37,530 bases of DNA from Acidimicrobiia bacterium. GTDB taxonomy: Bacteria > Actinomycetota > Acidimicrobiia > IMCC26256 > PALSA-555. Each line of letters opens with the position of its first letter. The stretch's first letter is position 1. The position numbers and the translations under genes are program-made. The DNA lies in the NCBI GenBank assembly GCA_040881685.1, contig JBBECS010000053.1:1-37530 (forward strand). Direction: 5' to 3'. Below, piece after piece: positions 15,721 to 35,700 of this stretch. The notes below the pieces were generated by a model. That model was given only the letters and a program-made list of their open reading frames with translations. It did no database searches and was not told where the DNA came from.

Positions 15721-15827
15721 GAAAACCCCACTCCCGCTCTCGGCCCCGTGGCCCGGGCCGCTTGGGCCCGGCTCGGGCGCCGCCCGATACGTGCGGCGCT
15801 GGTCCTCGCCTCCTACGTTCGATGGCA

Positions 15828-16628
15828 ATGGCCCACGACCGGCACCGCGCTGCGTGGGAGGACTGGGGTCGCGTGGACCCGTTCTGGGCCGTGCTCAGCG
15901 AAGCCGACGCCCGCCATGGCAAATGGGACCACGGTCGGTTCTTCGCCACCGGCATCGACATGGTCGCGACGATGCTCCAGCACGTGTCCAATTACGGCCG
16001 GCCGTCGCCGCGAGGTACTGCGCTCGACTTCGGGTGCGGGCTCGGGCGGATCACGCGTGCCCTGGCGCCGCACTTCGAGCACACGTACGGGCTCGATGTT
16101 GCGTCGACGATGATCGACGAGGCGCGCCGCCTCGATGTCGGGCTGAAGAGCTCGGGGGCCGAGTACCTCTTGCACGATCGGGATGATCTGTCCCAGTTCT
16201 CCGACGGCACGGTCGACTTCCTCTCGTGCTTGCTCGTGCTCCAGCACCTCCCGTCGCGCGAGCTGATCGAGACGTACCTGCGCGAGTTCGTACGCGTACT
16301 GTCACTCGGAGGTGTCGCGGTCGTGCAGCTGCCGGTGCTCGTGCCGAGGGTCGAATCCGGGTCGCGCGTGCGTCGGTGGCTCCAGCTGCGGACCCGCGGC
16401 GCCCGACTGCTGCGGGCGCTCGGCGTCAGCCCCATGTTCCTCTACGAGCGGTTGGGTTGGCGGCCGGAGATGCGGATGTCGGGCATCCCCTACGAGGAGA
16501 CCCTCGCGGTGTTCGAGGCCGCCGGTGGCGACGTGCTCGACACGTCGCCCGAGAGCGTCGATCCCGGGGGCGTGGTGAGCCGGCTCTACTTCGTCGCCCC
16601 GAGCGGCGCGGCCGGCTCAGGCTCCTGA
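15828..16628 (+). CDS. Class I SAM-dependent methyltransferase
   Basis: The 266-residue protein has Rossmann methyltransferase motifs: motif I LDFGCGLGRITRAL, then HTYGLDVASTMIDEAR, SDGTVDFLSCLLVLQHLPS as motif II/post-II and VLSLGGVAVVQLPV as motif III. The substrate is unknown; proximity to glycosyltransferases suggests a sugar or glycolipid. The ATG at 15828 is preferred over 15822 because TACGTT (15813-15818) then lies 9 nt upstream, the spacing seen for other leaderless genes here. Its 3' end overlaps the convergent glycosyltransferase by 12 nt. Confidence 0.85.
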   Translation: MAHDRHRAAWEDWGRVDPFWAVLSEADARHGKWDHGRFFATGIDMVATMLQHVSNYGRPSPRGTALDFGCGLGRITRALAPHFEHTYGLDVASTMIDEARRLDVGLKSSGAEYLLHDRDDLSQFSDGTVDFLSCLLVLQHLPSRELIETYLREFVRVLSLGGVAVVQLPVLVPRVESGSRVRRWLQLRTRGARLLRALGVSPMFLYERLGWRPEMRMSGIPYEETLAVFEAAGGDVLDTSPESVDPGGVVSRLYFVAPSGAAGSGS

Positions 16629-17753
16629 CGGCTTCCTGACGGCCGCCCGGAACACGCCCGCAAGGTCGCCCATCGGGATCGAGACGAGCGACGGTCGGGC
16701 AGCGCGTGCCGCGGTCGCGGTCGGTCCGGCACGCTCGACCACCGTGACGATCGCGTCGGCCAGCGCGTCGGCATCGCCCGGGGGAACGAGCTGGCCGGCG
16801 CCAGACGACGCCAGCCCGACGATCTCTCGGGGCCCGCCCGCGTCGGTCGCCACCACCGGCGTTCCGCTCATGAGCGCCTCGACCAGCACGAAGCCGTACG
16901 GCTCTGGCTCGGTGGACGGCAAGGTCAACACGTCGAGATCTGCGAGCACATCCGCGACGCCCTCCTCGTCGAGCTCACCAAGCCAATGCACGTCGGTCAG
17001 CTCGCTCGCTCGCACGGCCAGCTCGTGAGCGTGGCCCTCTTTGCCCTCCACTGCCGCACCGGCGATCAGGAGGTGCACGCCGGCGATGGCGTGCGTGACG
17101 CTCGGCCATGCGTCGAGGAGCACATCGACGCCCTTCCAGGTGTCGAGCCGCCCGACCACGCCGACGAGCGGGGCGTCGTCGGGAACACCCGCTCGGACCC
17201 GCATGCGGCCGGCACGTGTGGGGTTGAACACGGCGCGTTCCGGCGCGTCGTAGACAACGACAGCGTTGCGCGCGTCGAGCTGATCGGCGATGGCCTGCGA
17301 TCCGCAGACGACGCGCGTCGCGAAATGGCGAGCGAGGAAGCGCTCGACCCGGAGAGCCGCACCTGACTGCACGACGATCTCGCGTGCGTGCCATACGTGC
17401 GGGCGTCGAGCCAGCCGTGCCGCCGCCCATCCGTACCAGGAATGCAGCGAGTTCGAGTGCACGACGTCGATGTCGAGCTCGCGCACGAGGCGGTGGAGGC
17501 GGATCACGGCTCGCGGCCATCCGAGCACGTACGCCGTCCAGTCCCAGAATCGATGACTCATCGAGATTCGGCGCATCGCCACGATGTGGACGGTGGCTCC
17601 GGCGGCTTCGTACTCGGAGCGCAACGGCGGTTCCGTGGGCACCACGACGTGACACTCGAACTCGTTGGGTGGCAGGCTGCGCACCATCCTCAGGAGCGCC
17701 TGATCCGAGCCGCCGCGCTCCGCGACGGGCTGGATCGAGCAGAGCCGGATCAT
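16617..17753 (-). CDS. GT4-family (group 1) glycosyltransferase
   Basis: The 378-residue protein has a GT-B fold. The N-terminal acceptor half includes DIDVVHSNSLHSWYGWAAARL and VWHAREIV. The donor half includes GVVGRLDTWKGVDVLL and the nucleotide-sugar motif EPEPYGFVLVEALMSGTPVVATDAGGPREIV. Cytoplasmic; it probably adds a sugar to a surface polysaccharide or lipid. The ATG at 17753 is part of a CATG shared with the start of the divergent gene, so its Shine-Dalgarno sequence (GAGG) lies inside that gene. Confidence 0.88.
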   Translation of the reverse strand: MIRLCSIQPVAERGGSDQALLRMVRSLPPNEFECHVVVPTEPPLRSEYEAAGATVHIVAMRRISMSHRFWDWTAYVLGWPRAVIRLHRLVRELDIDVVHSNSLHSWYGWAAARLARRPHVWHAREIVVQSGAALRVERFLARHFATRVVCGSQAIADQLDARNAVVVYDAPERAVFNPTRAGRMRVRAGVPDDAPLVGVVGRLDTWKGVDVLLDAWPSVTHAIAGVHLLIAGAAVEGKEGHAHELAVRASELTDVHWLGELDEEGVADVLADLDVLTLPSTEPEPYGFVLVEALMSGTPVVATDAGGPREIVGLASSGAGQLVPPGDADALADAIVTVVERAGPTATAARAARPSLVSIPMGDLAGVFRAAVRKPSGA

Positions 17754-18912
17754 GCGTGTCGCCCTCAACGTCGAGCAGCTGTTGCAACGTCCCCCGGGGG
17801 GGATCGGTCGGTACACCGCGGAATTGGCGAGGCTACTCCCGGCGGCGAACGACGAAGGCGAGCCCATCGACGTGGTGCCGTTCGTGGCGCGTCACAGCCG
17901 CGCCAAGATCGAGCGGGCGCTCGGCTTGTTCGGCTTGCGCGACGCCGACCCGGTACGGCTGTTCCTGCCACGGCCGTTGCTGTACGACACGTGGAACCTG
18001 CTCGGCTTCCCGCCGCTCGGGTTGCTGCACCGATCGCTGCGTAACGTCGATCTCGTGCACGCGCCGTCGCTCGCGGTGCCGCCTCACAGCGGCGTCCCGC
18101 TGGTCGTAACGGTCCACGACGCGGCCGCGATCGTGTTCCCAGAGACGTACCCGCGGCGCGGCAGGTGGTTCCACCACCGGGGCAGCATCACCGCGGCGCG
18201 CCGAGCCGACGTGGTGATCGCCCCCACGATGGCTGCGGCCGAGGAGATCAGCGCGCGCACGCCAATCCCGCGGGAGCGCATCCGCGTCATCCCGCACGGG
18301 GTGACGCAGCTCCCCGTTGGCGAGGGTGTAGTCGCCGCCACACGAGCGACGGTCGGCGTCGGGGACGACCCGTACGTGCTGTGGGTCGGGACGCTCGAGC
18401 CGCGCAAGAACCTGCCCGTGCTCGTGGACGCGTTCCGCATCCTCGTTGAGCAGAAGGATCTGCCGCACCGGCTCGTGATCGTCGGCCCGACGGGTTGGCT
18501 CGACACCGAGTCTGCGATCCGCGGTCCGGCCGAGGCGCTCGGCGAGCGCATCCACTTCACCGGGCCGTTGCGCGCAGACCGTCTGCTCGCGCTCTACCGC
18601 GGTGCCGAGCTGTTCGCGTTCCCGAGCTTGCACGAGGGGTTCGGGCTACCGGTGCTCGAGGCGATGGCCCAATCGACGGCGGTGCTGTGCGCCGACATCC
18701 CCGTGCTTCGCGAGGTCGGTGGTGACGCCGCCGCGTTCGTCAGTGCGAACGACTCAGAGGCGTGGGCGCACTCGATCTCCGAGCTGTTGCGTGACGACTT
18801 CGCCCGAGAATCGCTCGCGCGCGCCGGACGCGTCCGCGCCGCGAGCTTCACGTGGGAGCGCTGCGTGAACCGAACGAGGGCCGTGTACCGAGACGTCCTC
18901 GGCCTGAGCTAA
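17752..18912 (+). CDS. GT4-family (group 1) glycosyltransferase
   Basis: The 386-residue GT-B protein starts with MRVALNVEQLLQ and the flexible Gly loop PPGGIGRYTAEL. It has WVGTLEPRKNLPVLVDAF, the typical donor-domain entry of mannosyl/glucosyltransferases, and the E-x7-E type motif HEGFGLPVLEAMAQ. It diverges from the neighbouring glycosyltransferase with the two ATGs overlapping in one CATG, leaving no intergenic promoter space. A weak inverted repeat (AACCCC 18911-18916, GGGGTT 18928-18933) lies at its 3' end. Confidence 0.9.
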   Translation: MRVALNVEQLLQRPPGGIGRYTAELARLLPAANDEGEPIDVVPFVARHSRAKIERALGLFGLRDADPVRLFLPRPLLYDTWNLLGFPPLGLLHRSLRNVDLVHAPSLAVPPHSGVPLVVTVHDAAAIVFPETYPRRGRWFHHRGSITAARRADVVIAPTMAAAEEISARTPIPRERIRVIPHGVTQLPVGEGVVAATRATVGVGDDPYVLWVGTLEPRKNLPVLVDAFRILVEQKDLPHRLVIVGPTGWLDTESAIRGPAEALGERIHFTGPLRADRLLALYRGAELFAFPSLHEGFGLPVLEAMAQSTAVLCADIPVLREVGGDAAAFVSANDSEAWAHSISELLRDDFARESLARAGRVRAASFTWERCVNRTRAVYRDVLGLS

Positions 18913-19547: not shown

Positions 19548-19553
19548 GGGAAC

Positions 19554-19559
19554 ACCCTA
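19554..19559 (-). promoter_or_regulatory. Putative -10 (TAGGGT) of the MBL-fold gene
   Basis: On the minus strand TAGGGT ends 6 nt before the GTG at 19547, giving a leaderless start. Confidence 0.35.
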
Positions 19560-19586
19560 CGCGTCGGTGCCGGCGGTGGTGACGCC

Positions 19587-19592
19587 TACCAT
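19587..19592 (+). promoter_or_regulatory. Putative -10 (TACCAT) of the Mur-ligase-like gene
   Basis: TACCAT ends 8 nt before the GTG at 19601. Together with the opposite -10 at 19554-19559 it makes a compact divergent promoter. Confidence 0.4.
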
Positions 19593-19600
19593 CCACGGCT

Positions 19601-20983
19601 GTGCCACTGCGGTCGGACGTGCTGGTTCCACCCGAGAACCCGCTGCCGCCGCTCGAGGGCCTGGCGTTGCACGTGCTCGGCGTGCGCGGGCGCGGGATGA
19701 CGCCGCCGGCGCTCGCGGCGGCGGCCGCGGGGGCCTACGTCGACGGCTGTGACCTCGCGCTCGCCGGGGGTCGCGACGTGCTGGCCGACGCCTGCATCCG
19801 CGTGGCGCAGCGTCACGACCGCGCGCACGTGGACGGACGGCATCTCGTGGTGACGACCATCGCCTCCCCCGATCTGCCCGAGGTCACCGCGGCGGCCGCC
19901 GCCGGGCGTCTCCATCATCGGGCCGATCTGCTCGCCGCGGTCGTGCGCGGTCGCACCACCATCGCGGTGACGGGAACCCACGGGAAGGGAACGGTTGCGG
20001 CTCTGGTCGGGAGTGCGCTCCAGCAACTGGGGGCCGACCCGCTCGTGCTGCTCGGTGTCGCGGCGCGGGTGCTCGGCGGCTCGTTCCGCGGTGGCGCCGG
20101 CCCCGCGGTTGTAGAAGCCGACGACGCCGACGGCACCATCGCCCGGATCCCGGCCACCGTCAGCGTGGTCACGAACTCGTGGTTCGACCACCCGATGCTC
20201 GGTCGCACACGCGGCGAGGTCCTGGACGACGTCTGCGTCCACGTCGCAGCGGTCGCCTCCGACGGCCTCGTGGTGATCGGTCGCGGAAGGAATCTCGCGC
20301 CGGTCGCGGCCGCCGCCCGGGCGCCGGTGTGGAAGCTCGGGAGAGACTTCGACGTCGAGACCGTCGAGGTCGACGACGACGGTCGGCTGCTGAGGTTCCG
20401 CGACCCCGAGACCGAGGCGGTGGTCTCGGGGCGCGTGTCCCTGCATGGCGGGCGAATCGCCGACAATGCGGCGCTTGCGTACGCAGCCCTTCGTGGTCGC
20501 GGCATCGAGCCCGAGGAGGCGGCCGGTGCACTCGCCGCCCTCGACGCCCTCGACCGCCGCCTCCACCTCGTGGGTGTGGCCCGTGGCGTCCGCGTGTTCG
20601 ACGACTACGGCAAGCACCCCGAGGCCACGGCGGCCAGCCTCGATGCGGTGCGCGAGCTGCGTCCCAAACGCGTGCACGTCGTGTACGAGCCGCACCTCCA
20701 TGCAGACGTGCGGCGCTGGGGTCGACAATGGGCTCGCGCACTTGCCCGCGCGGACTCGTGCATCGTGTTGCCCGTCGACATGCGCACGCGCCTGGCACCG
20801 ACGCGCCTCGCCGCGCCGACCTGGCCGACCGACGTCGGTCTGCGCGCCGACCTGCCCGAGCGCCGGGACGAGGCGCTCGCCCTCCTCGTGGAGCGCTGTG
20901 CGTCGGGTGACGTGGTGGTGATCAGCGGGGCGCACCCGGACCTGACGACGCTCGCCGAGTCGCTCGTGGCCCGACTGGAGTAG
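19601..20983 (+). CDS. Divergent Mur-ligase (MurC/Mpl-like) ATP-dependent ligase
   Basis: The 460-residue protein keeps the three-domain Mur ligase plan: N-terminal HVLGVRGRGMTP (24-35) resembles the MurC nucleotide loop; P-loop GTHGKGT (125-131); metal-site Glu172 in VVEADDADGT; NSWFDHPM (192-199) in place of the usual N-x-D-HLD; ADNAALAYAAL (287-297) for the N-x2-N-ALAA motif; RRLHLVG (319-325) and DDYGKHPEAT (334-343), where MurC has DDYGHHPTE. The core ATP-binding residues are therefore present while substrate-contact motifs differ. No cell-wall cluster surrounds it; the neighbours are glycosyltransferases. I infer a peptide-recycling or secondary-polymer ligase and not the housekeeping MurC. 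Confidence 0.8.
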   Translation: MPLRSDVLVPPENPLPPLEGLALHVLGVRGRGMTPPALAAAAAGAYVDGCDLALAGGRDVLADACIRVAQRHDRAHVDGRHLVVTTIASPDLPEVTAAAAAGRLHHRADLLAAVVRGRTTIAVTGTHGKGTVAALVGSALQQLGADPLVLLGVAARVLGGSFRGGAGPAVVEADDADGTIARIPATVSVVTNSWFDHPMLGRTRGEVLDDVCVHVAAVASDGLVVIGRGRNLAPVAAAARAPVWKLGRDFDVETVEVDDDGRLLRFRDPETEAVVSGRVSLHGGRIADNAALAYAALRGRGIEPEEAAGALAALDALDRRLHLVGVARGVRVFDDYGKHPEATAASLDAVRELRPKRVHVVYEPHLHADVRRWGRQWARALARADSCIVLPVDMRTRLAPTRLAAPTWPTDVGLRADLPERRDEALALLVERCASGDVVVISGAHPDLTTLAESLVARLE

Positions 20984-20995
20984 GACCGGCCGGTC
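20984..20995. terminator. 12-nt palindrome between convergent genes
   Basis: GACCGGCCGGTC begins right after the Mur-ligase-like stop and runs into the stop of the opposing glycosyltransferase. It may help end both transcripts; there is no U tract. Confidence 0.35.
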
Positions 20996-22109
20996 AGGGC
21001 CGCTCGCGTCGGACGCGCCGCAGGGCGCGCAGCGGTCGGGTCAGCTTCCACGACGCGGACGCCCAGATCTTGAACAGCTCGCGCTGGACACGGGCGCGCT
21101 CCCATTCCGCCTGTCGGCCGCGTTGCTCGAGCTCGAAGTTGCGCTGCTCGAGGGCGGCGAGCGTCCTGGCAACGTCGGGCTCCAAGGTCATGAGCGGTCG
21201 TTGCCCGAGCACGGATCGGTACAACGCCACGAGCTGCGTCGCATGGGCGCGGGCCGCGTGATGGCGACCGACCAGCTCTCGGCCGAGCTGACCGAGCGTC
21301 CGGTCGTAGCGGGAGAGCTCCTCCACGACGCTTTCGAGCGTGGTGGCCGCGCCCGCCGCGGGTGTGAAGCCGCACGCCTCGAGCTCGGGATAGCGCTCGG
21401 CGGTGACGAAGCCGGCGCCCCCCGACTCGTCGAGCACGAACGTGGCGCGGGCCAGGGCCATGGACTCGAGCGCCGTGCGGCCGACTCCGAAGACGATGTC
21501 GGCGCGCATCATGGCCTCGATGTGGTCGGCCGTGGGCTCGATCCCCGCGTGCACCTCCAGGCGCGTGCCGTGCCGGCGACACGCGTCCTCGAGCACCCCG
21601 ACACGTGACGAGAGGTTGCGGGCGATGGCGACCGCAAGGAGCGGGCGCTCGTTGATCGGCACCCGGTGGAGCTCCGCCGCGCTCATCTCCACCGGTTGGT
21701 GGAGGCGGTGCACCGGCACCCGGTCAGCCAGCTGCGACGCTCGCAGCCGCGACGTCACGGAGTCGTTCAGGCCCACCAGCGCGGCCGGCGCGGCGAGCTC
21801 GGGGGGATCCTCGATGTCGATCGTCCACGAATGGGACACGAACACCATCGGCGTGTCGGGAAGCTGCGCCCGTGCCGCCAGCGCGGCAGATGCGTGTTGT
21901 GCATGGATGACATCGACGGGTCCGACCGACGACAGGTCCTCGTGGATCCGGCAGCCGAGCCCGGCGAGGCGATCCGCCACCCTCCCGACCTGGAAGGCCC
22001 ACGCATGCACCTCGTGCCCGAGCTCGAGGAGCTCGTCCACGACCGTCTCGAGGTAGCTCTCGCTGCCACCGCGGACGTCGAGGGACTGGTTCGTGCAGAG
22101 GATGCGCAC
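20994..22109 (-). CDS. GT-B glycosyltransferase at the end of the RiPP-type operon
   Basis: The 371-residue protein has an N-terminal GT4-like acceptor domain (RGGSESYLETVVDELLELGHEV, GPVDVIHAQHASAA) and a donor domain with FGVGRTALESMALARATFVLDESGG. The C-terminal 70 residues are a charged coiled coil (LAALEQRNFELEQRGRQAEW) ending in SWKLTRPLRALRRVRRERP, a membrane-associating tail seen on polysaccharide glycosyltransferases. The GTG at 22109 is the first start giving the normal N-terminus. It lies 28 nt after the upstream gene on the same strand and is likely co-transcribed with the radical SAM genes; whether it glycosylates the peptide is open. Confidence 0.8.
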   Translation of the reverse strand: MRILCTNQSLDVRGGSESYLETVVDELLELGHEVHAWAFQVGRVADRLAGLGCRIHEDLSSVGPVDVIHAQHASAALAARAQLPDTPMVFVSHSWTIDIEDPPELAAPAALVGLNDSVTSRLRASQLADRVPVHRLHQPVEMSAAELHRVPINERPLLAVAIARNLSSRVGVLEDACRRHGTRLEVHAGIEPTADHIEAMMRADIVFGVGRTALESMALARATFVLDESGGAGFVTAERYPELEACGFTPAAGAATTLESVVEELSRYDRTLGQLGRELVGRHHAARAHATQLVALYRSVLGQRPLMTLEPDVARTLAALEQRNFELEQRGRQAEWERARVQRELFKIWASASWKLTRPLRALRRVRRERP

Positions 22110-22137
22110 CGGCGAGATCGTAGAGACGGCCGCGCGC

Positions 22138-22755
22138 TCAGATCTCGAGGGCTGGAACCGGCCACCGGCGCATGCGGTACGGCAGCAGCGTGGCCAGGCC
22201 ACCGAGCTGCAGCGCGAGGTGCTCGGTCGTCAGGTCCTCGAGCGCGCCCTTCGCGTCGTCGGCGAGCGTCGCACTGTCGGCGACCGTCTCGAGCTCGGCG
22301 ACGATGCGTTCGATGCCCTCGAGCTCGAAGCGATACCGGGCGGCGTGCTCGCCCTCCCAACGCACGTCCTTGATGAACACGAACCCGGGTCCGAGGCGGT
22401 AGTAGCAGAGGCCCGGCTGGTGGAAGTGCCTCCACTCGGCGAGGTTCACCGAGGTCTGCTCACCCGGCACCGGTCCGGGTGGCGCGAGGTGGATGAGCAG
22501 ACGCGCGTCGAGGCCCTCGTCGATGATGCCGTGCCACGCGACCGGGACGCCGAAGGACGCGGCGTCGCGCAGCAGGCGTACGAAGGCCAGCGTCGCTCGA
22601 GGCTCGTCGCCGGAGAGCCGGACCGCGTCGCGAAGGCGGAAGCCGCGCGCACCACCGTCGATGGCAGCAGCGACGTCGTAGCCGACCGCCGCTTCGGGAC
22701 CGCCGAGCTCGAGGACCTTCCCGACCGATGCGCTGGCGCTATCGCCAGTGGTCAA
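22138..22755 (-). CDS. Partner protein of the radical SAM RiPP enzyme (DUF5825-like)
   Basis: About 205 residues, no membrane segment. It includes AAIDGGARGFRLRDAVRL, FVRLLRDAASFGVPVAWHGII and LCYYRLGPGFVFIKDVR. Position after, and overlap with, a RiPP radical SAM C-methyltransferase matches the small proteins of the DUF5825 type that I recall beside such enzymes in actinobacteria; the family name is from memory and unverified. No ATG or GTG lies in a suitable place. TTG at 22755 is the likely start, overlapping the radical SAM stop by 17 nt; TTG 22794 is the alternative. Function unknown; substrate delivery or peptide binding is possible. Confidence 0.65.
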   Translation of the reverse strand: MTTGDSASASVGKVLELGGPEAAVGYDVAAAIDGGARGFRLRDAVRLSGDEPRATLAFVRLLRDAASFGVPVAWHGIIDEGLDARLLIHLAPPGPVPGEQTSVNLAEWRHFHQPGLCYYRLGPGFVFIKDVRWEGEHAARYRFELEGIERIVAELETVADSATLADDAKGALEDLTTEHLALQLGGLATLLPYRMRRWPVPALEI

Positions 22756-24601
22756 CGGGGACTCTCGCGGGGACGTCCGTCGTCGCCAGTGCAACGGCGC
22801 GGCCGGCGTCGACGAACACGAGCCCCTCCGCTGCGAGCCATCCGAGCCACTCTTCGATCTCGGCGGTGTTCGTGGGGAGGTCGAGGCGGGCGAGGCGGCG
22901 CGCCAGCGACTCGGCTCCGTGACCATCGGCGAGGAGCTGGTACCCGACGACGCGCCACGGCTCGCGCAACACGTGCTCGGTCTGTCGACGGTGCGCCCGC
23001 CGGTCGGAGATCACGAGCTCTTCGCCGACGACCTCGTGCGTGAGGGTGGAGCTGAAGTACGCGTCTTGCCAGGTCTTGACGCCGTCATGGACCGCCCGCT
23101 CGACGTCGGACCCGATGCCGGCGTTCGGCGTGTCGAACACGAACACGAGATCCATGAGCTCCCGTGTGGGCAGGTTGTAGACGTGGTGGTAGAACGACGC
23201 CGGCACTCGCAACCCGAACCCGAGCTCCGGCCGCTGGTGGTAGGGGCTGAAGCGCTCCAATGCGATGCGTGTCGCGACGCGGGGTGGCTGGAGGTGATGC
23301 AGGTTCGGCATCTGCTCGATGATCGGCAGGTAATCCGAGGGCTCCTCGTCCGGGAAGCCGTAGAGGAGGTTCCACGGTGCGGTGACACGGAAGTCCTCGC
23401 AGTCGCGCAGCAGCCGGACGTTGGACACGCCGTCCACTCCCTTGTCCATGATCTTGAGCACGCGCGTCGACAGGCTCTCGATGCCGGGCTGGATGTGCAC
23501 GACGCCGGCATCGGCCAGGGCGCGGACGTGCTCGCGGCGGAGGTTCGACTTGACCTCGTAGTGCACGCGCAGGTCCCAGCCGGTTTCGGCGAGGCTGGGC
23601 AAGAGCGTCGCGATGTACTCGGTGTCCATGATGTTGTCGACCATCACGACGTCGAGGATGCGATGACGCCGCACGTCGTCCTCGATCTCCGCGAACACCC
23701 GCTCCGGGGGCTTGCTGCGGAACTCCATCGTGGAGCCGTTGAGGCCGCAGAACGTGCAGTGCTTGCGCGCGCCCCACCAGCACCCCCGCGCGGCCTCGTG
23801 CACGAGCTTCGGCTCGAGGTACTCGCGCACCGGCCCGCCGTCGATGGCGGCGAAGAAGTCGTCGAAGCTTGCCCGCGGCACGCGGTCCATGGTGAGCGCA
23901 TCCGGCAACGGCGGGTTCGCAACGCTCTCGCCGGCGCGCCACCAGCTCAAGCCGCCGACCTTGCTCAGCGCATCCTCGGTCGCGCCGGCTTCGAGCGCGG
24001 CGAGGAGCCCGACAAGCGCCCGCTCCCCTTCACCGCTGACGACGTAGTCGAGCATGCGGAAGTTCCGGTGGAGCGCCGCACCCATGGGCCCGTCACAGTT
24101 GCCGCCGCCCATGACCACGACGACGTCGGGTCGACGGCGCTTCAGCTCGGCCGCGAGCGCGAGCGAGGGCACGTTCTGCATGAAGGTGCTTGTGAGGCCG
24201 ACGACGTCGGGCTCGAAGGCGAGCACCTCGTCGGCCGCGAAGCGGATGAAGCTCGGCGCGACCGCGCGCATCTTCTTGGCGGGGCCGTCGTTCACGAGCG
24301 GGGTCTTCGGATGGGCGAGATAGCGCTCCTCGGGCCACGACTCGTCCACGTAGAGCGCGGACGTGAACACGAAGTCGCCGAGACCGTGGAAGAGCCCGTC
24401 CTCGACGACATCGGAGTAGTCGTCGGGGGTGACGTCGCCCCCGGTGTGCTCGAGCACGTACTCCGCCCAGTGGATGTTGGCGTAGTAGGTGTCAACGTGG
24501 TCTTCAGGGCGCGCCGCACGCACCGCCTCGGACAGCAGGCTGAGCTGGAGCGACGGGAGGTCGAGTGACTGCCAGGGCATGCTCACAAGACACAGGCGCA
24601 T
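22739..24601 (-). CDS. B12-binding radical SAM protein, RiPP maturation C-methyltransferase family
   Basis: The 620-residue protein has an N-terminal cobalamin-binding Rossmann domain (about 1-200, with DVVGLTSTFMQNVPSLALAAEL split around residue 140 and VVVVMGGGNCDGPMG at 160-174). A radical SAM barrel follows, whose cluster motif is Cys274-x7-Cys282-x2-Cys285 in GCWWGARKHCTFCGLNG. This spaced CxxxxxxxCxxC is the hallmark of the TIGR03975 family (RiPP maturation radical SAM protein 1), as opposed to the ordinary CxxxCxxC. Later motifs are VKSNLRREHV, HIQPGIESLSTRVLKIMDKG and WNLLYGFPDE. The C-terminal about 120 residues form a winged-helix-like region. The expected reaction is methylation of unactivated carbons of a peptide. 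A 50-residue candidate substrate gene lies 89 nt upstream. Confidence 0.9.
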   Translation of the reverse strand: MRLCLVSMPWQSLDLPSLQLSLLSEAVRAARPEDHVDTYYANIHWAEYVLEHTGGDVTPDDYSDVVEDGLFHGLGDFVFTSALYVDESWPEERYLAHPKTPLVNDGPAKKMRAVAPSFIRFAADEVLAFEPDVVGLTSTFMQNVPSLALAAELKRRRPDVVVVMGGGNCDGPMGAALHRNFRMLDYVVSGEGERALVGLLAALEAGATEDALSKVGGLSWWRAGESVANPPLPDALTMDRVPRASFDDFFAAIDGGPVREYLEPKLVHEAARGCWWGARKHCTFCGLNGSTMEFRSKPPERVFAEIEDDVRRHRILDVVMVDNIMDTEYIATLLPSLAETGWDLRVHYEVKSNLRREHVRALADAGVVHIQPGIESLSTRVLKIMDKGVDGVSNVRLLRDCEDFRVTAPWNLLYGFPDEEPSDYLPIIEQMPNLHHLQPPRVATRIALERFSPYHQRPELGFGLRVPASFYHHVYNLPTRELMDLVFVFDTPNAGIGSDVERAVHDGVKTWQDAYFSSTLTHEVVGEELVISDRRAHRRQTEHVLREPWRVVGYQLLADGHGAESLARRLARLDLPTNTAEIEEWLGWLAAEGLVFVDAGRAVALATTDVPARVPVDHWR

Positions 24602-24630
24602 GGAGAGTCCTCGAGTACTGGTGGATGCCT

Positions 24631-24678
24631 ACCCGCGAGCAACCTGGCCCGGACGGTGCCGGGCCAGGTTACGCGGGT
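24631..24678 (-). other. Strong hairpin between candidate precursor gene and radical SAM gene
   Basis: On the minus strand, arms AACCTGGCCCGG and CCGGGCCAGGTT (12 bp, perfect) enclose a 6-nt loop. They are extended by ACCCGCG and CGCGGGT (7 bp, perfect) beyond a 1x3 internal loop. Hairpins in this place in RiPP operons often limit read-through or stabilise the upstream mRNA so that precursor exceeds enzyme. It lacks a U tract. Confidence 0.75.
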
Positions 24679-24690
24679 TTCGACCTGTGG

Positions 24691-24843
24691 CTAGCGGGAC
24701 TCGCTGGCCTCGGCGAGGATCTCGGTCTCCGTCGCGAGGAGCTCGTCCTCACGGGACGGGTCGTCCTCGTCGGGTGGGCGCAGGCCGGGCGTCACCATGA
24801 CACCTGGCCGCTGGTTCTTGACGGCGATCTTCTCAAGCGGCAT
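24691..24843 (-). CDS. Candidate RiPP precursor peptide, 50 residues
   Basis: A 50-residue ORF with a strong Shine-Dalgarno sequence (GGAGGAC) directly before its ATG at 24843. The N-terminal half is basic and aliphatic (MPLEKIAVKNQRPGVMVTPG); the C-terminal half is very acidic (PPDEDDPSREDELLATETEI, ending AEASESR). It has no Cys, Trp, Tyr, Phe or His. It immediately precedes a RiPP radical SAM C-methyltransferase, from which a strong hairpin separates it, so I infer the peptide is the enzyme's substrate. The usual leader-core order is unclear: the Val/Pro/Thr-rich segment at 14-24 is the most plausible site of C-methylation, with the acidic tail as recognition part. Its start overlaps the upstream ORF by 11 nt. 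Confidence 0.7.
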   Translation of the reverse strand: MPLEKIAVKNQRPGVMVTPGLRPPDEDDPSREDELLATETEILAEASESR

Positions 24844-25087
24844 GAGTCCTCCGGAGTCGGTGCTTGCTGGGGCGCACGCTAGTCGGTCGCCGCCGGGCCA
24901 TGCGATACCCCCCTTCCAGCGAACCGAGATCGGCCACGCGCACGCCGGAGAGATCCTCGCCATCGAACTCCGATTGGACTGCGCCGACGACCGCGCGACA
25001 GAGTCCCCGCTCCTCGAACACGATCTCGTCTGCGCTGATGGTGAACTTGCGGCCCGGGAGCTCGATGTTGTGCGCCGTGAAGTGCAT
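24833..25087 (-). pseudogene. N-terminal remnant of a class I methyltransferase (84 codons)
   Basis: The 84-residue ORF has GGAGGAC before its ATG at 25087 and a TACTCT -10 candidate further up. Residues 1-61 look like the start of a class I SAM methyltransferase: HNIELPGRKFTI, then GVRVADLGSLEGGY, which is motif I (normally DLG-C-LEGGY). After motif I the sequence turns into low-complexity Arg-rich residues (RMARRRPTSVRPSKHRLRRT) and stops inside the next gene, so the catalytic domain is missing. I read it as a truncated methyltransferase whose promoter and ribosome site now serve the RiPP operon. A small functional protein is the alternative. Confidence 0.6.
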
Positions 25088-25106
25088 CTACGTCCTCCGA
25101 GCCCGA

Positions 25107-25112
25107 GAGTAG
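25107..25112 (-). promoter_or_regulatory. Putative -10 (TACTCT) of the RiPP-type operon
   Basis: On the minus strand TACTCT lies 19 nt before the ATG at 25087, leaving a short leader that contains GGAGGA. Confidence 0.35.
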
Positions 25113-27851: not shown

Positions 27852-27861
27852 ACGAGCGTGA

Positions 27862-27920
27862 GCGCCGCGGGTACCCGCGGCGCAGCGAGTGGGGCCAAAG
27901 CGGCCCGGGCGCGAAGCGCC
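27862..27920. repeat. Three-stem intergenic element, copy 1
   Basis: Three consecutive stems: a perfect 22-nt palindrome (GCGCCGCGGGT and its complement, 27862-27883); GGGCC-AAAGC-GGCCC (27892-27906); GGCGC-GAA-GCGCC (27908-27920). A second copy at 32104-32157 has the same order and spacing with changed but still paired stems. It sits just before the MauD-like gene. Confidence 0.6.
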
Positions 27921-27959
27921 AGGAGCGGAGAGGTTGAGCACCTGGGCCGACTACAGCCG

Positions 27960-28742
27960 GTGACAGACTGGATCGCCATGGCCGTTCTCGTGACCGTGCT
28001 CGCTGTCGTCATGGCGCTGCTGGCTGTCCTCGTCGCCGGTCTGCTGCGAAGCCACGCGGAGATTCTGCGCGCACTGCACGGCCTCGGCGCGGGTCTCGAT
28101 CCCGATGCCGAGGGCGACGCCACGCCGACGCACCTCGGTGTCACCGTGCCCCGCCCACGCGCCGAGCCGCGCGCCGCGGCCGACGTGAGCGGTACCACGC
28201 CGTCAGGCGACGCGGTGAGCGTCTCGATCTCAGGCGCTCGCCACTCGACCCTGCTCGCATTCCTCACAACCGGTTGCACGACATGTGCCGACTTCTGGTC
28301 AGCGTTCGCGAACCCCGACGGGTTGCGTGTTCCTGGAGACGCGCGCCTGCTTGTCGTCACCAAGGGTGAAGAGGCGGAAAGTGTGACGCGCGTGCGCAAA
28401 TTCGCACCACGGGACCTCTCGGTGGTGATGTCGAGCGAGGCATGGGACGCGTACGACGTGCCGGTTGCTCCGTACTTCGCCTACGTGGACGGGCCGACGA
28501 GCGCCATCGTCGGCGAGGGGGCGGCGATGACGTGGGAGCACCTCGTCGGGATGATGGAGCAGGCCATCGCCGACGCAGGGCTCAGCACGAGCGGCCGCGG
28601 CGGGCGGCGGCGTCGGGCGGGCGGCCGGGCGCGGGAGGCGCGCGCGGATGCCGATCTGCTCCGCGCCGGCATCGAGCCCGGGCACCCGAGCCTCTATCCC
28701 ACGAGTGAGGACGATCTCCATGACTCGGGCGGTCCCGAGTGA
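27960..28742 (+). CDS. MauD-like membrane-anchored thioredoxin-fold protein
   Basis: The 260-residue protein has an N-terminal transmembrane anchor (about residues 6-29) and an extracytoplasmic thioredoxin-like domain with Cys106-Thr-Thr-Cys109 in TLLAFLTTGCTTCADFW, then VMSSEAWDAYDVPVAPYFAYVDG, the cis-Pro region. The C-terminus is Arg/Ala-rich. MauD proteins act with MauE in forming the many disulfides of the methylamine dehydrogenase light chain, and a MauE-like and a light-chain-like gene follow here. The GTG at 27960 is chosen; ATG 27978 is the alternative. Its stop overlaps the next start (GTGA). Confidence 0.75.
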   Translation: MTDWIAMAVLVTVLAVVMALLAVLVAGLLRSHAEILRALHGLGAGLDPDAEGDATPTHLGVTVPRPRAEPRAAADVSGTTPSGDAVSVSISGARHSTLLAFLTTGCTTCADFWSAFANPDGLRVPGDARLLVVTKGEEAESVTRVRKFAPRDLSVVMSSEAWDAYDVPVAPYFAYVDGPTSAIVGEGAAMTWEHLVGMMEQAIADAGLSTSGRGGRRRRAGGRAREARADADLLRAGIEPGHPSLYPTSEDDLHDSGGPE

Positions 28743-29242
28743 GCGAGATCGAGGCGCACGGCCTCGCCGTCGACCTCCCTGCTGGTTGGGAGGGTCGGGT
28801 GTTCCGCCGTGCCGAGGCCGGAGAAGTGCAGGCGGCAGGGGTCGTCGGAGCGTCTGCGCCGCCAGGGGAGCTGACCTTTCCCGTCGTGCACGTCGCATCG
28901 ATTCCGATCCCCAACGACGCGGCTGACTACGGCAGCGACCTGGTCGAGTCGCTCGGTCCTGACGACGCGTTCATCGTGCTCAAGGAGTTCGAGCCGGCCG
29001 ACGCCACACAACCGTTGTTCGCGCGAGCAGGCATGCCTGAGCTGGCGCCCGAGGACTTCGACCCTGCGGGTCTCCAACGCCAGCTGTCCGGCCAGGCGGG
29101 TCGGCAAGAGTTCTTCCACGAGGCCGGTCGCGCGTTCTGCGTGTATGTGGTTCTCGGGAGCTACAGCCGCCGGAACGAGGTGGTACCCGCCGTCAACGCG
29201 GTGCTCGCCGGCATCCGCATCGATCCAGGTGCCGCGGGGTGA
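28739..29242 (+). CDS. Hypothetical protein in the Mau-like cluster
   Basis: The 167-residue protein has no signal peptide or membrane segment. It starts HGLAVDLPAGWEGRVFRR and contains VVHVASIPIPNDAADYGSDLVESLGPDDAFIVLKEF (in pieces) and RAFCVYVVLGSYSRR. The beta-rich pattern resembles small PsbP/LpqN-like folds only loosely; I do not assign a family. The start overlaps the MauD-like stop by 4 nt and its stop overlaps the MauE-like start, so it is firmly part of this operon. Confidence 0.75.
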   Translation: MSEIEAHGLAVDLPAGWEGRVFRRAEAGEVQAAGVVGASAPPGELTFPVVHVASIPIPNDAADYGSDLVESLGPDDAFIVLKEFEPADATQPLFARAGMPELAPEDFDPAGLQRQLSGQAGRQEFFHEAGRAFCVYVVLGSYSRRNEVVPAVNAVLAGIRIDPGAAG

Positions 29243-29769
29243 ACGCCGCGGCCGGCCCGTTCATGATCGCGGCGACACTTCTCGGTCTCGCGGGAGCGTT
29301 CAAAGCGGCGTCGCCACGCGACACCGCCAACGCGCTTCGCGGCGTCGGGTTGCCCGGCGCGCCGTGGTTGGTCCGCGCCGGCGGCGCGTTCGAAGCGGCG
29401 GTTGGCGCGTACGCGATCGTCGAAGGCGACCGGCTCGGTGCCGCGCTGGTCGCGGTGTCCTACCTCCTCTTCGCCGGGTTCGTCGCGATCGCCCTTGGCC
29501 GAGGCGTTCCCATCGCGACGTGCGGGTGCTTCGGCAAGGCCGACACGCCACCGAGCCTCGTGCACGTGGGGTTCGACCTTGCTGCGGCGGGCGCAGCGAT
29601 CGCGGTCGTCGTCGACCCCACCGCCGGGATGGCTGACACCGTGGCGGATCAACCGCTCGCGGGTGTGCCGTACGTGCTGCTCGTGATCACCGGGACGTTC
29701 CTCGCCTTCCTTGCGCTCACGGCACTCCCACGCACGCTGGCACTTGTGCGCGAGGCTCGAACGGCATGA
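29239..29769 (+). CDS. MauE/DoxX-like redox-associated membrane protein
   Basis: The 176-residue integral membrane protein has about four helices (roughly 5-23, 66-88, 107-126, 142-164) and the redox motif Cys95-Gly-Cys97-Phe-Gly between helices, characteristic of MauE/MauE-like DoxX relatives. MauE together with MauD is required for the disulfides of the methylamine dehydrogenase light chain; here it probably supplies oxidising or reducing power to fold the Cys-rich protein encoded next. Start and stop both overlap neighbours by 4 nt. Confidence 0.85.
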   Translation: MNAAAGPFMIAATLLGLAGAFKAASPRDTANALRGVGLPGAPWLVRAGGAFEAAVGAYAIVEGDRLGAALVAVSYLLFAGFVAIALGRGVPIATCGCFGKADTPPSLVHVGFDLAAAGAAIAVVVDPTAGMADTVADQPLAGVPYVLLVITGTFLAFLALTALPRTLALVREARTA

Positions 29770-31361
29770 CCGAACGCAGCAGGGGCGTCGGCGTCGCCAA
29801 CTGGCTCGTCTCCAAGACGAGCGGCCTACTGGATTCCCGACTGTCGCGGCGCAGCTTCATCTCGCGTGCGACCCTCGTCGGCACCGCCGTTGCGGCCACC
29901 GGCTGCAAGGTGATCACGAAACAAGGTGCGCCGTACACGCGCATCACCGACTGTCCGGGCGGGACGCTGTGCCGTGACGGTTACACCGAGTTCTGCTGCG
30001 TCATCAACAAGGGAGTGAACGCGTGCCCGCCGAACACGATCTCCGCCGGATGGTGGCGCGCTGACTACTCGGTCTACTGCAACGGCACCCGCTACTACAT
30101 CGACTGCAACGAGGTGTGCTGTGGACCTCGGCGCGGTGACGGCTTCTGCGCCGGGTGCTCACCGTGCCGGTGCGCCGCCGGGTGTCACACCCGCAAGGTG
30201 CACTGCAACTACTTCCGATACGGCCAGTGCAACCAGCACGTCGGCAGCGTGGGCCCGATCGCCTGCCGCATGGTCACGTGCGTGCCGCCGTACAACCTCA
30301 ACATCGGGTGCAGCCCGTCGGGCGCCGTCGACAACTCGACCGCGGGCCACTACACCGACTGCAGCAAGTACACGCCTCCGCCACCTCCCCCGCCGGTACC
30401 CGTGCTCCTCGCGGTCGGTTCGGCCGCCACCGACGGTGCCGGCGCGATGGTCGTGGCCGCGAGAGGTTCCGACGCGGCCGTCTGGACGACGCGGTGGGAC
30501 GGCACGACGTTCGGTGCGTGGGAGTCCCTCGGGGGGACCGTGTCGTCTCGGGTCGCCATCGCCTTGATGGGCGGGACGACCCTCGCAGCCGCCAAGGACA
30601 ACGCGCGGCGCATGATCTGGGCGCTGCACGACGGCACCGCCTGGTCGGCCTGGCAGCCGTTCGACGGCGAGATCGCGTCCGATCCCCTGCTCGTCAACGT
30701 TGGCTCGGTCGTGGTCGCCGTCGCCCGCGGCGTGAACGGTGTCGTGCACTTCCGAGCCTGGGACGGGACGCAATGGGCGCCGTGGTCGGGTACGAGCGGC
30801 GTCACCCTCTCCGATCCGATGGCCACGCCGACAGGAACGAATGCCGCGCTCACGACCCGCGGAGTCAACGGCGTGCCGCACCATGCCGTGCTCACTGAGA
30901 CCGGTTGGGGGGGTTGGACCGGGCTGAGCGGTGTGATCTCGAGCGACCCGGTCGTCGTCACGAAGGGCTCGGGCGCGCTGCTCATCGCGCGTGGGCTGAA
31001 CTATCGGTTGTTCGCGCACGGCATCGCGACGACGCCGAATGGATGGGACACGCTCCCCAACATCATCGCCACCTCTGAGCCGGCAGGGTGCGAATTCGGC
31101 GGCGAGGTTCACGTGTTCGTCCGGGGGACCGACTACGCGGTCTGGTGGATCCACGGTGACGCCGGCGCATGGTCGGCGTGGACGAGTCTCGGCCTCGACG
31201 CGCGATCGAGCCCGGTCGTCGTCTTCGACGGGACCGCGATCAATGTGTTCGTGCTCGGGAGCGACTCCGAGCTCTGGTATCAACGCTGGGACGGCGCCAC
31301 GTGGACGGGCTGGGCGTCGGTGACCGGTCTGACGATCGCTCCGGCCAAGGGCTACGCGTAG
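29766..31361 (+). CDS. Tat-exported light-chain-like (MauA-type) Cys-rich domain fused to a W-rich beta-propeller
   Basis: 531 residues. Residues 25-47 are a Tat signal (SRRSFISRATLVGTAVAATGC) ending in a possible lipobox Cys47. Residues 60-200 hold 20 Cys and resemble the methylamine dehydrogenase light chain: CPPNTISAGWWRADYSVYC... and DCNEVCCG parallel CPPGT...SW...C and DCCG of MauA. Trp96 aligns with the TTQ quinone Trp (Trp57 in Paracoccus). There is no other Trp in the domain, so the second TTQ residue is missing. A Pro run (204-210) leads to about 320 residues of repeats with WDGTxWxxWxxLxG motifs, a PLL/DUF346-type lectin-like propeller. Co-encoded MauD/MauE-like proteins would form its disulfides. 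Secreted or lipid-anchored; activity unknown. Confidence 0.8.
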   Translation: MTERSRGVGVANWLVSKTSGLLDSRLSRRSFISRATLVGTAVAATGCKVITKQGAPYTRITDCPGGTLCRDGYTEFCCVINKGVNACPPNTISAGWWRADYSVYCNGTRYYIDCNEVCCGPRRGDGFCAGCSPCRCAAGCHTRKVHCNYFRYGQCNQHVGSVGPIACRMVTCVPPYNLNIGCSPSGAVDNSTAGHYTDCSKYTPPPPPPPVPVLLAVGSAATDGAGAMVVAARGSDAAVWTTRWDGTTFGAWESLGGTVSSRVAIALMGGTTLAAAKDNARRMIWALHDGTAWSAWQPFDGEIASDPLLVNVGSVVVAVARGVNGVVHFRAWDGTQWAPWSGTSGVTLSDPMATPTGTNAALTTRGVNGVPHHAVLTETGWGGWTGLSGVISSDPVVVTKGSGALLIARGLNYRLFAHGIATTPNGWDTLPNIIATSEPAGCEFGGEVHVFVRGTDYAVWWIHGDAGAWSAWTSLGLDARSSPVVVFDGTAINVFVLGSDSELWYQRWDGATWTGWASVTGLTIAPAKGYA

Positions 31362-32990: not shown

Positions 32991-34112
32991 CTACTTCTCC
33001 GCGACCCGACGGTAAAGGTCGGCCAGCTCGGCACCGGCGCGATCCCAGGTGTACCTCGTGACGCGCTCGCGCCCGCGGGCGATGAGCTGGGCGCGCACGT
33101 CGTCGTCAGCGAGGACCGTGCCCAACGCGTCGGCGAGCGCGTCGACGTCGGCTGGATCGGGCAGGAGGGCGGCGTCGCCCAGCACCTCGGGTAGCGCGCC
33201 GGCATTCGACGCGACCACCGGGATGCCAGCTTGCATGGCCTCGAGCGGGGGGTGACCGAAGCCCTCGTAGATCGACGGGTACGCGAGCACCGTCGCGCCA
33301 GCGAGAAGGTCGACGCGGTCGTCGTCGTCGACGTACCCGAGCCTGAGGATCCGGTCGCCGTGGCGCGCGTCCGCGACCGCAGCGTCGAACTCCTCGACGC
33401 CCCAACCATCCGGACCCGCGACCACCAGTACGAGACCTGCGTCGTTGCCCGCCGCCTCGTCGAACGCGCGCACGAGATTCGGGAGGTTCTTGCGGGGTTC
33501 CACCGTGCCGATCGTGAGCACGTAGCGCTCCGTGCCGGCCAAGCGGTGACCCCGGGCCGGATCACCCCCGGCCGACGGCACCAGCCCGCTGTAGACGCGT
33601 ACGAGACGATCGGGCTCGACGTCGAAGTGCTCTCGCACCTCGTTGGCGATGAAGTCGCTCACCACGTGGATCACCGCGCCGCGGTCGAGCGCCAGCCGGA
33701 TGTAGCGCGGGAACGTGAGGGTGTCAGGGGTGCTGAGCTCTGGGTACCACACGAAGGTGAGATCGTGAATCGTGGCGATGACCGGTGCGCGCGCGGGGGG
33801 CGCTACGAAGTTGGGTGCGTGCACCACGTCGACGTTCCCCGCCCAGAACTCGGCACGCGGAATTGGAGCGTGACGCCACAACATGCGCGTCAAACGAGCC
33901 GGAAGGTGGCGTGTCCGGGCGCGCACGTGCCGGGGCACCTCGTAGGCGAGCTGCTCGCGACCCCTCAGCGTGATGGCGAACGCGGTGACGTCGAGGTCCT
34001 CGCGCGCCGCGAGCGTCTCGAGGAGGTTCTCGACCATCTGGCCGACGCCGGTTCGGGGCCCGAGGAGCGCGGTGGCCTCGACGCCGACTCGGAGACGTCC
34101 AGGATCCCGCAC
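32991..34112 (-). CDS. GT4-family (group 1) glycosyltransferase
   Basis: The 373-residue GT-B glycosyltransferase starts RLRVGVEATALLGPRTGVGQMVENLL, has VDVVHAPNFVAPPARAPVIATIHDLTFVWYP (in pieces), the donor-domain entry LTIGTVEPRKNLPNLVRAF and YEGFGHPPLEAMQAGIPVVASNAGALPEV with the nucleotide-sugar Glu residues. This type acts in exopolysaccharide assembly. It begins 11 nt after the flippase stop on the same strand, so the two likely work together on one surface glycan. Confidence 0.9.
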   Translation of the reverse strand: MRDPGRLRVGVEATALLGPRTGVGQMVENLLETLAAREDLDVTAFAITLRGREQLAYEVPRHVRARTRHLPARLTRMLWRHAPIPRAEFWAGNVDVVHAPNFVAPPARAPVIATIHDLTFVWYPELSTPDTLTFPRYIRLALDRGAVIHVVSDFIANEVREHFDVEPDRLVRVYSGLVPSAGGDPARGHRLAGTERYVLTIGTVEPRKNLPNLVRAFDEAAGNDAGLVLVVAGPDGWGVEEFDAAVADARHGDRILRLGYVDDDDRVDLLAGATVLAYPSIYEGFGHPPLEAMQAGIPVVASNAGALPEVLGDAALLPDPADVDALADALGTVLADDDVRAQLIARGRERVTRYTWDRAGAELADLYRRVAEK

Positions 34113-34123
34113 GGCGTCAGGAT

Positions 34124-35470
34124 TCAGATCTCGAGCGGTTCGTGCTCGATCTGCTCCGCGAGTCGGGCGAAGGCCTCTTCGTCCGGGATGCCGGCTCGCA
34201 TGCGCGCGACGAGGAGCATGGCCATCGCGGCCGTCGAGGCCGACGCGCCCGCGATGAAGCCGAGCTCCACACGGGTGAAGACGTTGTCACTCGCGAGAGC
34301 GGCTACCGCCGCGAATGCGGCGATGCCGACCAGCCAAGCCAGCAGGACTCGTGAGTGACCCATCAATGCGATCAACGCCTGCGCGAGCGTGAGCGCCAGG
34401 ATGAACAGCCCGCTTCCTGCCGCGAGCAGGGCGAGGTCCTGATGACCGAGGTTGAACTTCTCGCCGAAGAGGATCTCGCCGACCGGTGGCCCGAGCGTGC
34501 CGCCCGCGACCACCCCTATCGCGCCGATGGCCACCACGATCACCACCAGCTTGCGCAGCCCGGTACGAAAGTCGTCATGACGGCCCGCGCCCGCGAGACC
34601 AGCGAGCTTGGGCAGCAGCGCGGCCTGCACGGCCTGGAACAGCAGGATCGGGATCCGCGCGAGGAACACGCCGGCAAGGAAGTTGGCGACCGCCTTGTCT
34701 TGTGAATCCTTCGCCAGGAGGAGCGCGCCGAGGAACGGCGCGTACCCCAGCACTTGCGCCGAGAGCGACCCGAAGAAGAGATACCCGAGGTTGGTCGAGA
34801 GCTCCGACCAGGGCGCGTCGGGACCCGGCGCGATCAGACCGTGTTCGCGCGACAGCGCAATGACTGCGGCAATCGCAGGCGGTACCGCAAGGCAGAGCCC
34901 GTACAACGCAGGGTCGTCGACGCCGGCCGCGGCCAGCCCGATGCACGGCACCAGACGAATGACGCCCTCCGCACCGATGATCAAGCTGTACGACCCGAAG
35001 CGTTCGTTGCCCGACAGCGTGCCGCGTGCGAGGTGCTGCACGCAGTAGGTGAACAACGCGATCACCAGACATGCGGCCAACCCGCTGCTGCCCTTGAACA
35101 GGTCGTCGACGAGCGGCGTACCCAGCGCCGCTGCACCAGCCAGAAGAGCGAGCGTGATCGTGAGGATGAGTGCGGCGAGCGCGGCCCGGCGCACCACCGG
35201 TCCACCACCAACTCCCTTGACCCGGCGGTCGGCGAGCGCGCGGCCGACCTCTTGTTCCAAGGGGAGGAAGAAACCGGGTGCGAGCACGAACACGAGCACC
35301 CACAGCGCGTTGACGGCCTTGTAATCGGAGTGACCGAGAGCTCGGAACGTAAGGATCTGGAAGCCGTACGCGCTGAGTCCGGCGATGAGCAGGCCCGCGC
35401 CGACCACGAACGTGCCCTCCGGCATGGGTCGCCGGGCCGCCTCGATCAGGCGCTGTGTGCGTTGTGCCAT
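34124..35470 (-). CDS. Polysaccharide flippase (Wzx/MATE-like)
   Basis: The 448-residue integral membrane protein has about 12-14 hydrophobic helices, the MOP-superfamily layout for moving lipid-linked sugars across the membrane. The first helix region is FVVGAGLLIAGLSAYGFQIL and the loop ALGHSDYKAVNALWVLVFVLAPGFFLPLEQEVGRA (in pieces) is typical of actinobacterial flippases. The ATG at 35470 is chosen over the longer frame. It heads a two-gene unit with the glycosyltransferase. Confidence 0.85.
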   Translation of the reverse strand: MAQRTQRLIEAARRPMPEGTFVVGAGLLIAGLSAYGFQILTFRALGHSDYKAVNALWVLVFVLAPGFFLPLEQEVGRALADRRVKGVGGGPVVRRAALAALILTITLALLAGAAALGTPLVDDLFKGSSGLAACLVIALFTYCVQHLARGTLSGNERFGSYSLIIGAEGVIRLVPCIGLAAAGVDDPALYGLCLAVPPAIAAVIALSREHGLIAPGPDAPWSELSTNLGYLFFGSLSAQVLGYAPFLGALLLAKDSQDKAVANFLAGVFLARIPILLFQAVQAALLPKLAGLAGAGRHDDFRTGLRKLVVIVVAIGAIGVVAGGTLGPPVGEILFGEKFNLGHQDLALLAAGSGLFILALTLAQALIALMGHSRVLLAWLVGIAAFAAVAALASDNVFTRVELGFIAGASASTAAMAMLLVARMRAGIPDEEAFARLAEQIEHEPLEI

Positions 35471-35519
35471 GTGATCAAAGCCGTTCCCGCAGCAGGGCCC
35501 AAAGGGCGATGCGAGCATA

Positions 35520-35627
35520 ATGGCCCGACCGATGAGCACCCGGATGCTGTTGATCCTCGCTGCGCTCTGCGCCGTGGCGATCCTGGTGGCGTCGGCAGTC
35601 AAGCTCTTCACGCTCTCCTCGCCCTGA
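35520..35627 (+). CDS. Small single-pass membrane peptide, 31-35 residues
   Basis: A short ORF with one hydrophobic helix (MLLILAALCAVAILVASAVK). Either ATG 35520 or, better, ATG 35532 may start it: CATAAT at 35516-35521 would then be a -10 placed 10 nt upstream, giving a leaderless mRNA. It lies in the gap between the divergent flippase and lpd. Function unknown. Confidence 0.45.
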   Translation: MARPMSTRMLLILAALCAVAILVASAVKLFTLSSP

Positions 35628-35700
35628 ATCCTCGTCGCAGCCCTCTTCGTGGCCGATACTTGCGGTGTCCACATGCCCCACCGACCGTGGAGAGGAGCCC

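Follow-up and report, generated by a model that had tools for sequence, protein, structure and literature searches.

A compact set of minus-strand genes was identified in the window, the 37,530-nucleotide stretch of Acidimicrobiia DNA that was analysed here, in which a small peptide gene is followed by the genes of a B12-dependent radical SAM enzyme and of a DUF5825 partner protein. This cassette is genuine and belongs, as a divergent member, to the clavusporin-like kind of RiPP locus built on a B12-radical SAM/DUF5825 pair. The reading that we prefer, with a probability of roughly 0.7, is that the three genes make up a minimal clavusporin-type RiPP cassette in which a complex of the radical SAM enzyme and DUF5825 C-methylates the 50-residue peptide.

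The inserted gene block

The initial annotation had described five minus-strand open reading frames as one RiPP operon. Their positions were confirmed in the sequence, and the peptide, radical SAM and DUF5825 genes kept their place in the operon, whereas the glycosyltransferase gene probably does not belong to it and an 84-residue frame looks like a methyltransferase remnant. The block that holds these genes extends from 19550 to 25110 and comprises a Mur-ligase-like gene, the glycosyltransferase, DUF5825, radical SAM and peptide genes and the methyltransferase remnant. As initially noted, neither a protease nor an exporter is encoded in it. The flanking genes, one for a metallo-beta-lactamase-fold protein and the other for an acyl-CoA dehydrogenase, are separated by about 5.6 kb in the window, whereas they lie 110-145 bp apart in relatives of the same genus (G068), the same family (G060) and the same order (G048). 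The block is therefore an insertion; loss of the segment (~19.55-25.1 kb) from each of the three relatives would be a possible but less simple explanation. Contamination was rejected as the origin of the block, since both of its sides join genes that are conserved in relatives.

The 84-residue frame (24833-25087, minus strand) has coding composition only in its first ~62 codons, which end just past VRVADLGSLEGGY, a segment that we take to be motif I of a class I methyltransferase. It thus looks like a gene remnant, the truncated N-terminus of a class I SAM methyltransferase, and it was discarded as a pathway gene on the same grounds of composition. No homologue of this frame was found among 118 other genomes of the class.

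The block landed inside a polysaccharide-type region. Further glycosyltransferases, a methyltransferase and a probable flippase are encoded at 15762-18912 and 32991-35674 of the window, and these genes are mostly conserved in relatives.

The radical SAM enzyme

The radical SAM gene (22739-24601, minus strand) encodes a protein of 620 residues that scored 561.1 bits against TIGR03975, the family of RiPP maturation radical SAM C-methyltransferases, for which the curated cut-off is 281.85 bits. This bore out the family membership proposed by the initial annotation. The cysteine motif that it had read, C274-x7-C282-x2-C285 (CWWGARKHCTFC), is invariant across 22 aligned relatives. The B12-binding (PF02310) and Radical_SAM (PF04055) domains both exceeded their Pfam cut-offs. 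The AF2 model of the protein (pLDDT 89.7) matched OxsB (Z 20.4), TokK (19.4), CysS (18.5) and TsrM (17.2), and the predicted fold is that of B12-radical SAM methyltransferases. With these four enzymes the window protein has the fold and the domain order in common, a cobalamin-binding domain followed by the radical SAM domain, whereas sequence identity is just 13-19%. The substrates of TokK, CysS, OxsB and TsrM are small molecules, tryptophan or carrier-bound compounds, and not a ribosomal precursor handled together with a partner protein.

Scanning of genome contigs and viral contigs with the single radical SAM sequence gave no matches, nor did an alignment-based scan of the viral contigs. The alignment-based scan yielded 80 related loci, mostly from Streptomyces and also from Actinomadura, Micromonospora, Myxococcota and Alicyclobacillus. 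In a tree of 86 radical SAM proteins, the window enzyme sits on a long and deep branch and does not fall in the clade of the Streptomyces clavuligerus enzyme (50 rows, SH-aLRT 98), and its best identity in this set is 52%, to a protein of Actinomadura alba. Because of this position the cassette was not classed among the clavusporin clusters in the strict sense, and the reaction could differ from that of the clavusporin clade. An alternative in which the pair carries out another B12-radical SAM reaction on the peptide, such as C-C cross-linking, would agree with this divergence and has a parallel in PbsB, a B12-radical SAM enzyme of a RiPP pathway that cross-links hydroxylated aromatic residues (as described in PMC12257519). 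It is nevertheless rather improbable, as the family and its pairing with DUF5825 are associated with C-methylation and the 50-residue peptide contains no aromatic residues that could be cross-linked.

The genome gave no match to CobS, and cobalamin may therefore need an outside source or uptake. TIGR03975 was matched in only two of the 296 genomes of the class, and DUF5825 in one of the 58 genomes of the order. The other TIGR03975 match in the class (L019:3366-4484, genome G207) is a 372-residue frame that lacks the B12-binding half and has no clear DUF5825 gene beside it; it may be a truncated gene or a B12-free variant.

The precursor peptide

Directly upstream of the radical SAM gene, the initial annotation had placed a small open reading frame with a strong ribosome site. 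The gene (24691-24843, minus strand) encodes a peptide of 50 residues, MPLEKIAVKNQRPGVMVTPGLRPPDEDDPSREDELLATETEILAEASESR, and its ATG lies a few nucleotides past a perfect Shine-Dalgarno sequence, GGAGG (24848-24852, minus strand), that was read in the sequence. The GC content at the three codon positions (0.73/0.43/0.90) is coding-like and close to that of the radical SAM gene (0.71/0.43/0.91), whereas the composition of the in-frame extension 5' of the ATG is not coding-like. As a point that would speak against its proposal, the annotation had named the lack of a conserved small frame beside related radical SAM genes. The proposal held, with 71 of the 80 related loci carrying a small frame led by a Shine-Dalgarno sequence no more than 450 nt upstream of the radical SAM gene. 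Together with the TIGR03975 assignment, this conserved small frame supports the view that the gene of a RiPP-type C-methyltransferase is paired here with a precursor gene upstream of it.

Two motifs recur in the small frames of the relatives and are both present in the window peptide, as EKIAV and NQRPGV, in whose full view they were picked: the N-terminal motif [KREQ][KR]xx[IV] occurs in 61 of 71 relatives, compared with 28 of 3412 background frames led by a Shine-Dalgarno sequence, and the motif N[RQ][KR]P[GAST][VI] in 31 of 71 loci, compared with none of 3410. The window peptide (MPLEKIAVKNQRPGVMVTPGLRPPDEDDPSREDE...) continues after these motifs with an acidic stretch, as clavusporin-like precursors do (NRKPGIGITVTVPFRNAEDxxEE), and its gene occupies the same position as the precursor genes of the relatives. 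An HMM built from the clavusporin-like precursors ranked it first of 282 sequences, with a score of 2.3 bits that is not significant, and an HMM of the set nearest by radical SAM enzyme ranked it 21st, likewise without significance. Given this non-detection and the way in which the motifs were picked, homology between the window peptide and the precursors of the relatives is likely, judged from sequence, rather than proven. Overall, the sequence of the peptide is new. The cassette thus combines compactness, a host from an actinobacterial class in which the family is rare and a peptide unlike the clavusporin-like precursors examined, and it could thus broaden the set of substrates of enzymes that methylate unactivated carbons.

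The failure of the precursor HMM, the truncated methyltransferase at the edge of the block and the lack of a protease or exporter in the cluster would all fit a decaying passenger whose peptide frame is no functional precursor. This explanation is very improbable, since the radical SAM, DUF5825 and peptide frames are intact and have kept their coding composition, invariant residues and ribosome site.

The 89-nt stretch between the peptide and radical SAM genes has a folding energy of -44.0 kcal/mol (z -4.05). The RNA hairpin (24631-24678, minus strand), placed from folding energy and relatives, recurs at the same place with z below -2 in 40 of 49 relatives and is a probable partial terminator or stabiliser.

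DUF5825 and its relation to the radical SAM enzyme

The partner protein is encoded at 22138-22755 (minus strand), where 22755 is a candidate TTG start and the Pfam match begins at about 22674. With this TTG as the start, the gene overlaps the radical SAM gene by 17 nt, in line with the overlap initially annotated. The match to DUF5825 (PF19142) reaches 109.4 bits against a gathering score of 25 (E=2.4e-31).

Profile comparison with hhalign aligned DUF5825 residues 20-191 with residues 353-608 of the radical SAM enzyme (98.1%, score 102). In the controls, 60 column-shuffled DUF5825 profiles scored at most 22.6, the reversed DUF5825 profile 16.6 and the N-terminal half of the radical SAM enzyme 18.6. 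The two halves of DUF5825, taken separately, matched their collinear counterparts with scores of 54.5 and 53.1, and an independent search of the NCBIfam library returned TIGR03975 as the top family for 8 of 33 DUF5825 members (best E 2.1e-4). Furthermore, the invariant residues W74, H89, W108 and R132 of DUF5825 fall on the invariant W410, H436, W511 and R535 of the radical SAM enzyme. These profile scores, collinear halves, library matches and shared invariant residues lead, at the level of sequence, to the conclusion that DUF5825 and the C-terminal half of its own radical SAM partner are homologous. No mention of such an origin was found in the literature searched, which comprised sources other than the clavusporin paper. 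The Pfam family, listed as one of unknown function, has the look of a degenerate copy of one half of the enzyme that it accompanies, and this reading provides it with an origin and a testable role.

Comparison of the sequence of DUF5825 with solved structures gave no match, and Foldseek returned none with E <= 0.001 for its AF2 model (pLDDT 89). RiPP recognition elements (RREs), winged-helix domains that bind leader peptides, came to the top only in a second look with VIA, where the three best matches of the C-terminal part (~115-186) were PbtF (8t19) and TbiB1 (5v1v), with Z values of 5.6-5.9 that lie below the level that proves kinship, as a Z below 8 can mean a common arrangement only. These alignments cover 65-70 residues with 13-14% identity, and the end of the radical SAM model shows an order of elements that resembles that of DUF5825 (three strands, helices, two strands). 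By model only, the C-terminal domain of DUF5825 is thus suggestively RRE-like and a candidate for leader binding. It appears moderately likely that DUF5825 is a non-catalytic twin that arose by duplication of the C-terminal half of a TIGR03975 protein, namely the last barrel units and the RRE-like domain, and that it would make up an asymmetric complex together with the enzyme, with the leader of the precursor held by the dead half-copy. The homology of the two proteins suggests a way in which this enzyme pair could hold its peptide.

The glycosyltransferase and the Mur-ligase-like gene

The GT4-type glycosyltransferase gene (20994-22109, minus strand) has a GTG start at 22109, exactly 28 nt past the DUF5825 stop, as the initial annotation had stated. 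The Pfam match of the product is weak (22.7 bits, below the cut-off of 28.5), and a search against solved structures gave no match. Convergent with it is the Mur-ligase-like gene (19601-20983, plus strand). According to the initial annotation, all five genes form an operon whose peptide is C-methylated and perhaps then glycosylated by the product of this downstream gene. The co-directional arrangement, the short distance to DUF5825 and the common inserted block agree with this proposal. Against it, a homologue of the glycosyltransferase is present in none of the 80 related loci. Among the genomes sampled from the class, the Mur-like gene occurs in two, the window genome (G000) and G056, and these alone have a close glycosyltransferase (55% identity), a single distant match being found in a third genome. 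In both genomes the two genes form a convergent pair, and the searches gave neither a DUF5825 nor a TIGR03975 match for G056. Given that no related locus has the glycosyltransferase, and that in another genome it is paired with a Mur-ligase gene, glycosylation is unsupported and this reading is unlikely. The glycosyltransferase is probably a passenger outside the RiPP pathway and not a tailoring enzyme, and the simplest reading is that it forms with the Mur-like gene a separate module within the same inserted block.

The pair of G056 (contig C77, L118:3572-6305) is 55% and 61% identical to the glycosyltransferase and Mur-ligase-like proteins of the window, respectively. It adjoins a P450-like gene and a transposase-like frame, no RiPP genes were seen there, and the pair apparently moves as an independent module.

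Comparison with clavusporin and related loci

Clavusporins, the products of the mpc cluster, are said to be C-methylated peptide surfactants, an account ascribed to Zhang, Li, Overton and Seyedsayamdost in Nat Chem Biol in 2025. According to PMC12257519, a paper on biphenomycin-like RiPPs that cites this work, a homologous B12-radical SAM/DUF5825 pair C-methylates amino acids in these compounds, and the core trio of the window is for this reason of a known kind. The phrase 'apparently undescribed', used for the operon in the initial annotation, had to be given up in view of that report, though the window member is deeply divergent. Removal of the clavusporin leader is attributed to the prolyl oligopeptidase MpcP in PMC12951456.

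A locus of S. clavuligerus (L012), taken to be of the clavusporin kind, encodes a radical SAM enzyme 43% identical to that of the window, followed by DUF5825, and directly upstream a small precursor with an NRKP[GS][IV] segment and an acidic tail. The same order, radical SAM gene and then DUF5825 directly, is found at 22138-24601 of the window, and DUF5825 lies downstream of the radical SAM gene in 79 of the 80 related loci. The window cassette differs from clavusporin in that its radical SAM enzyme falls outside the S. clavuligerus clade, its precursor sequence is different, no prolyl-oligopeptidase-like hydrolase or MFS transporter is adjacent and the host belongs to a class that seldom has the family. 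Related clusters often include an MFS exporter, and those of the clavusporin clade also the hydrolase; homologues of the prolyl-oligopeptidase-like/S9 and MFS families are present elsewhere in the genome of the window.

Streptomyces loci of the 'MEIKKVVVREE..NRRPAVMEKRPTR' type (e.g. L032, L038 and L009) encode radical SAM enzymes ~48-52% identical to that of the window, and their DUF5825 start overlaps the radical SAM stop, as in the window. Their precursors, with a [EK]K[VIT]x[VI] start and an RPAVM segment, resemble the window peptide in these features, whereas they are ~27 residues long without an acidic tail, compared with 50 residues in the window. We know of no described product of these loci.

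Just 5' of the precursor gene, Myxococcal, Alicyclobacillus and Micromonospora relatives have in common a ferritin-like-looking protein of ~250-300 residues with DEARH and DE.RH motifs (L036:4553-5446, L039:5030-5776 and L044:6844-7791), which may be an additional tailoring enzyme in a different subtype. A pathway of the Pearlin type (PMC9303977) was considered and set aside, as the block showed no PEARL-like gene.

Proposed pathway

In the preferred reading, the hairpin 3' of the peptide gene would lead to an excess of the peptide over the enzymes. The N-terminal segment LEKIAVKN would act as the leader and, judging from the models, could bind to the RRE-like domain of DUF5825 and perhaps also to the domain of similar build at the C-terminus of the radical SAM enzyme. 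DUF5825 lacks both a cobalamin domain and an iron-sulphur cluster motif and is homologous to half of the radical SAM enzyme, so it would be a second subunit without catalytic activity, with the task of holding the peptide. The radical SAM enzyme, with methylcobalamin and a 5'-deoxyadenosyl radical, would then methylate unactivated carbons, for which the most likely segment is PGVMVTPGL, which occupies the same place as PGIGITVTVPF of clavusporin-type precursors. Removal of the leader and export may depend on S9 peptidases and MFS transporters whose genes lie outside the cluster.

Other genes in the window

A run of consecutive plus-strand genes at 27858-31361 includes one for a MauE-like protein (PF07291) and one for a Cys-rich protein with a Tat-like signal and repeats. 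These genes recall the maturation of the methylamine dehydrogenase light chain.
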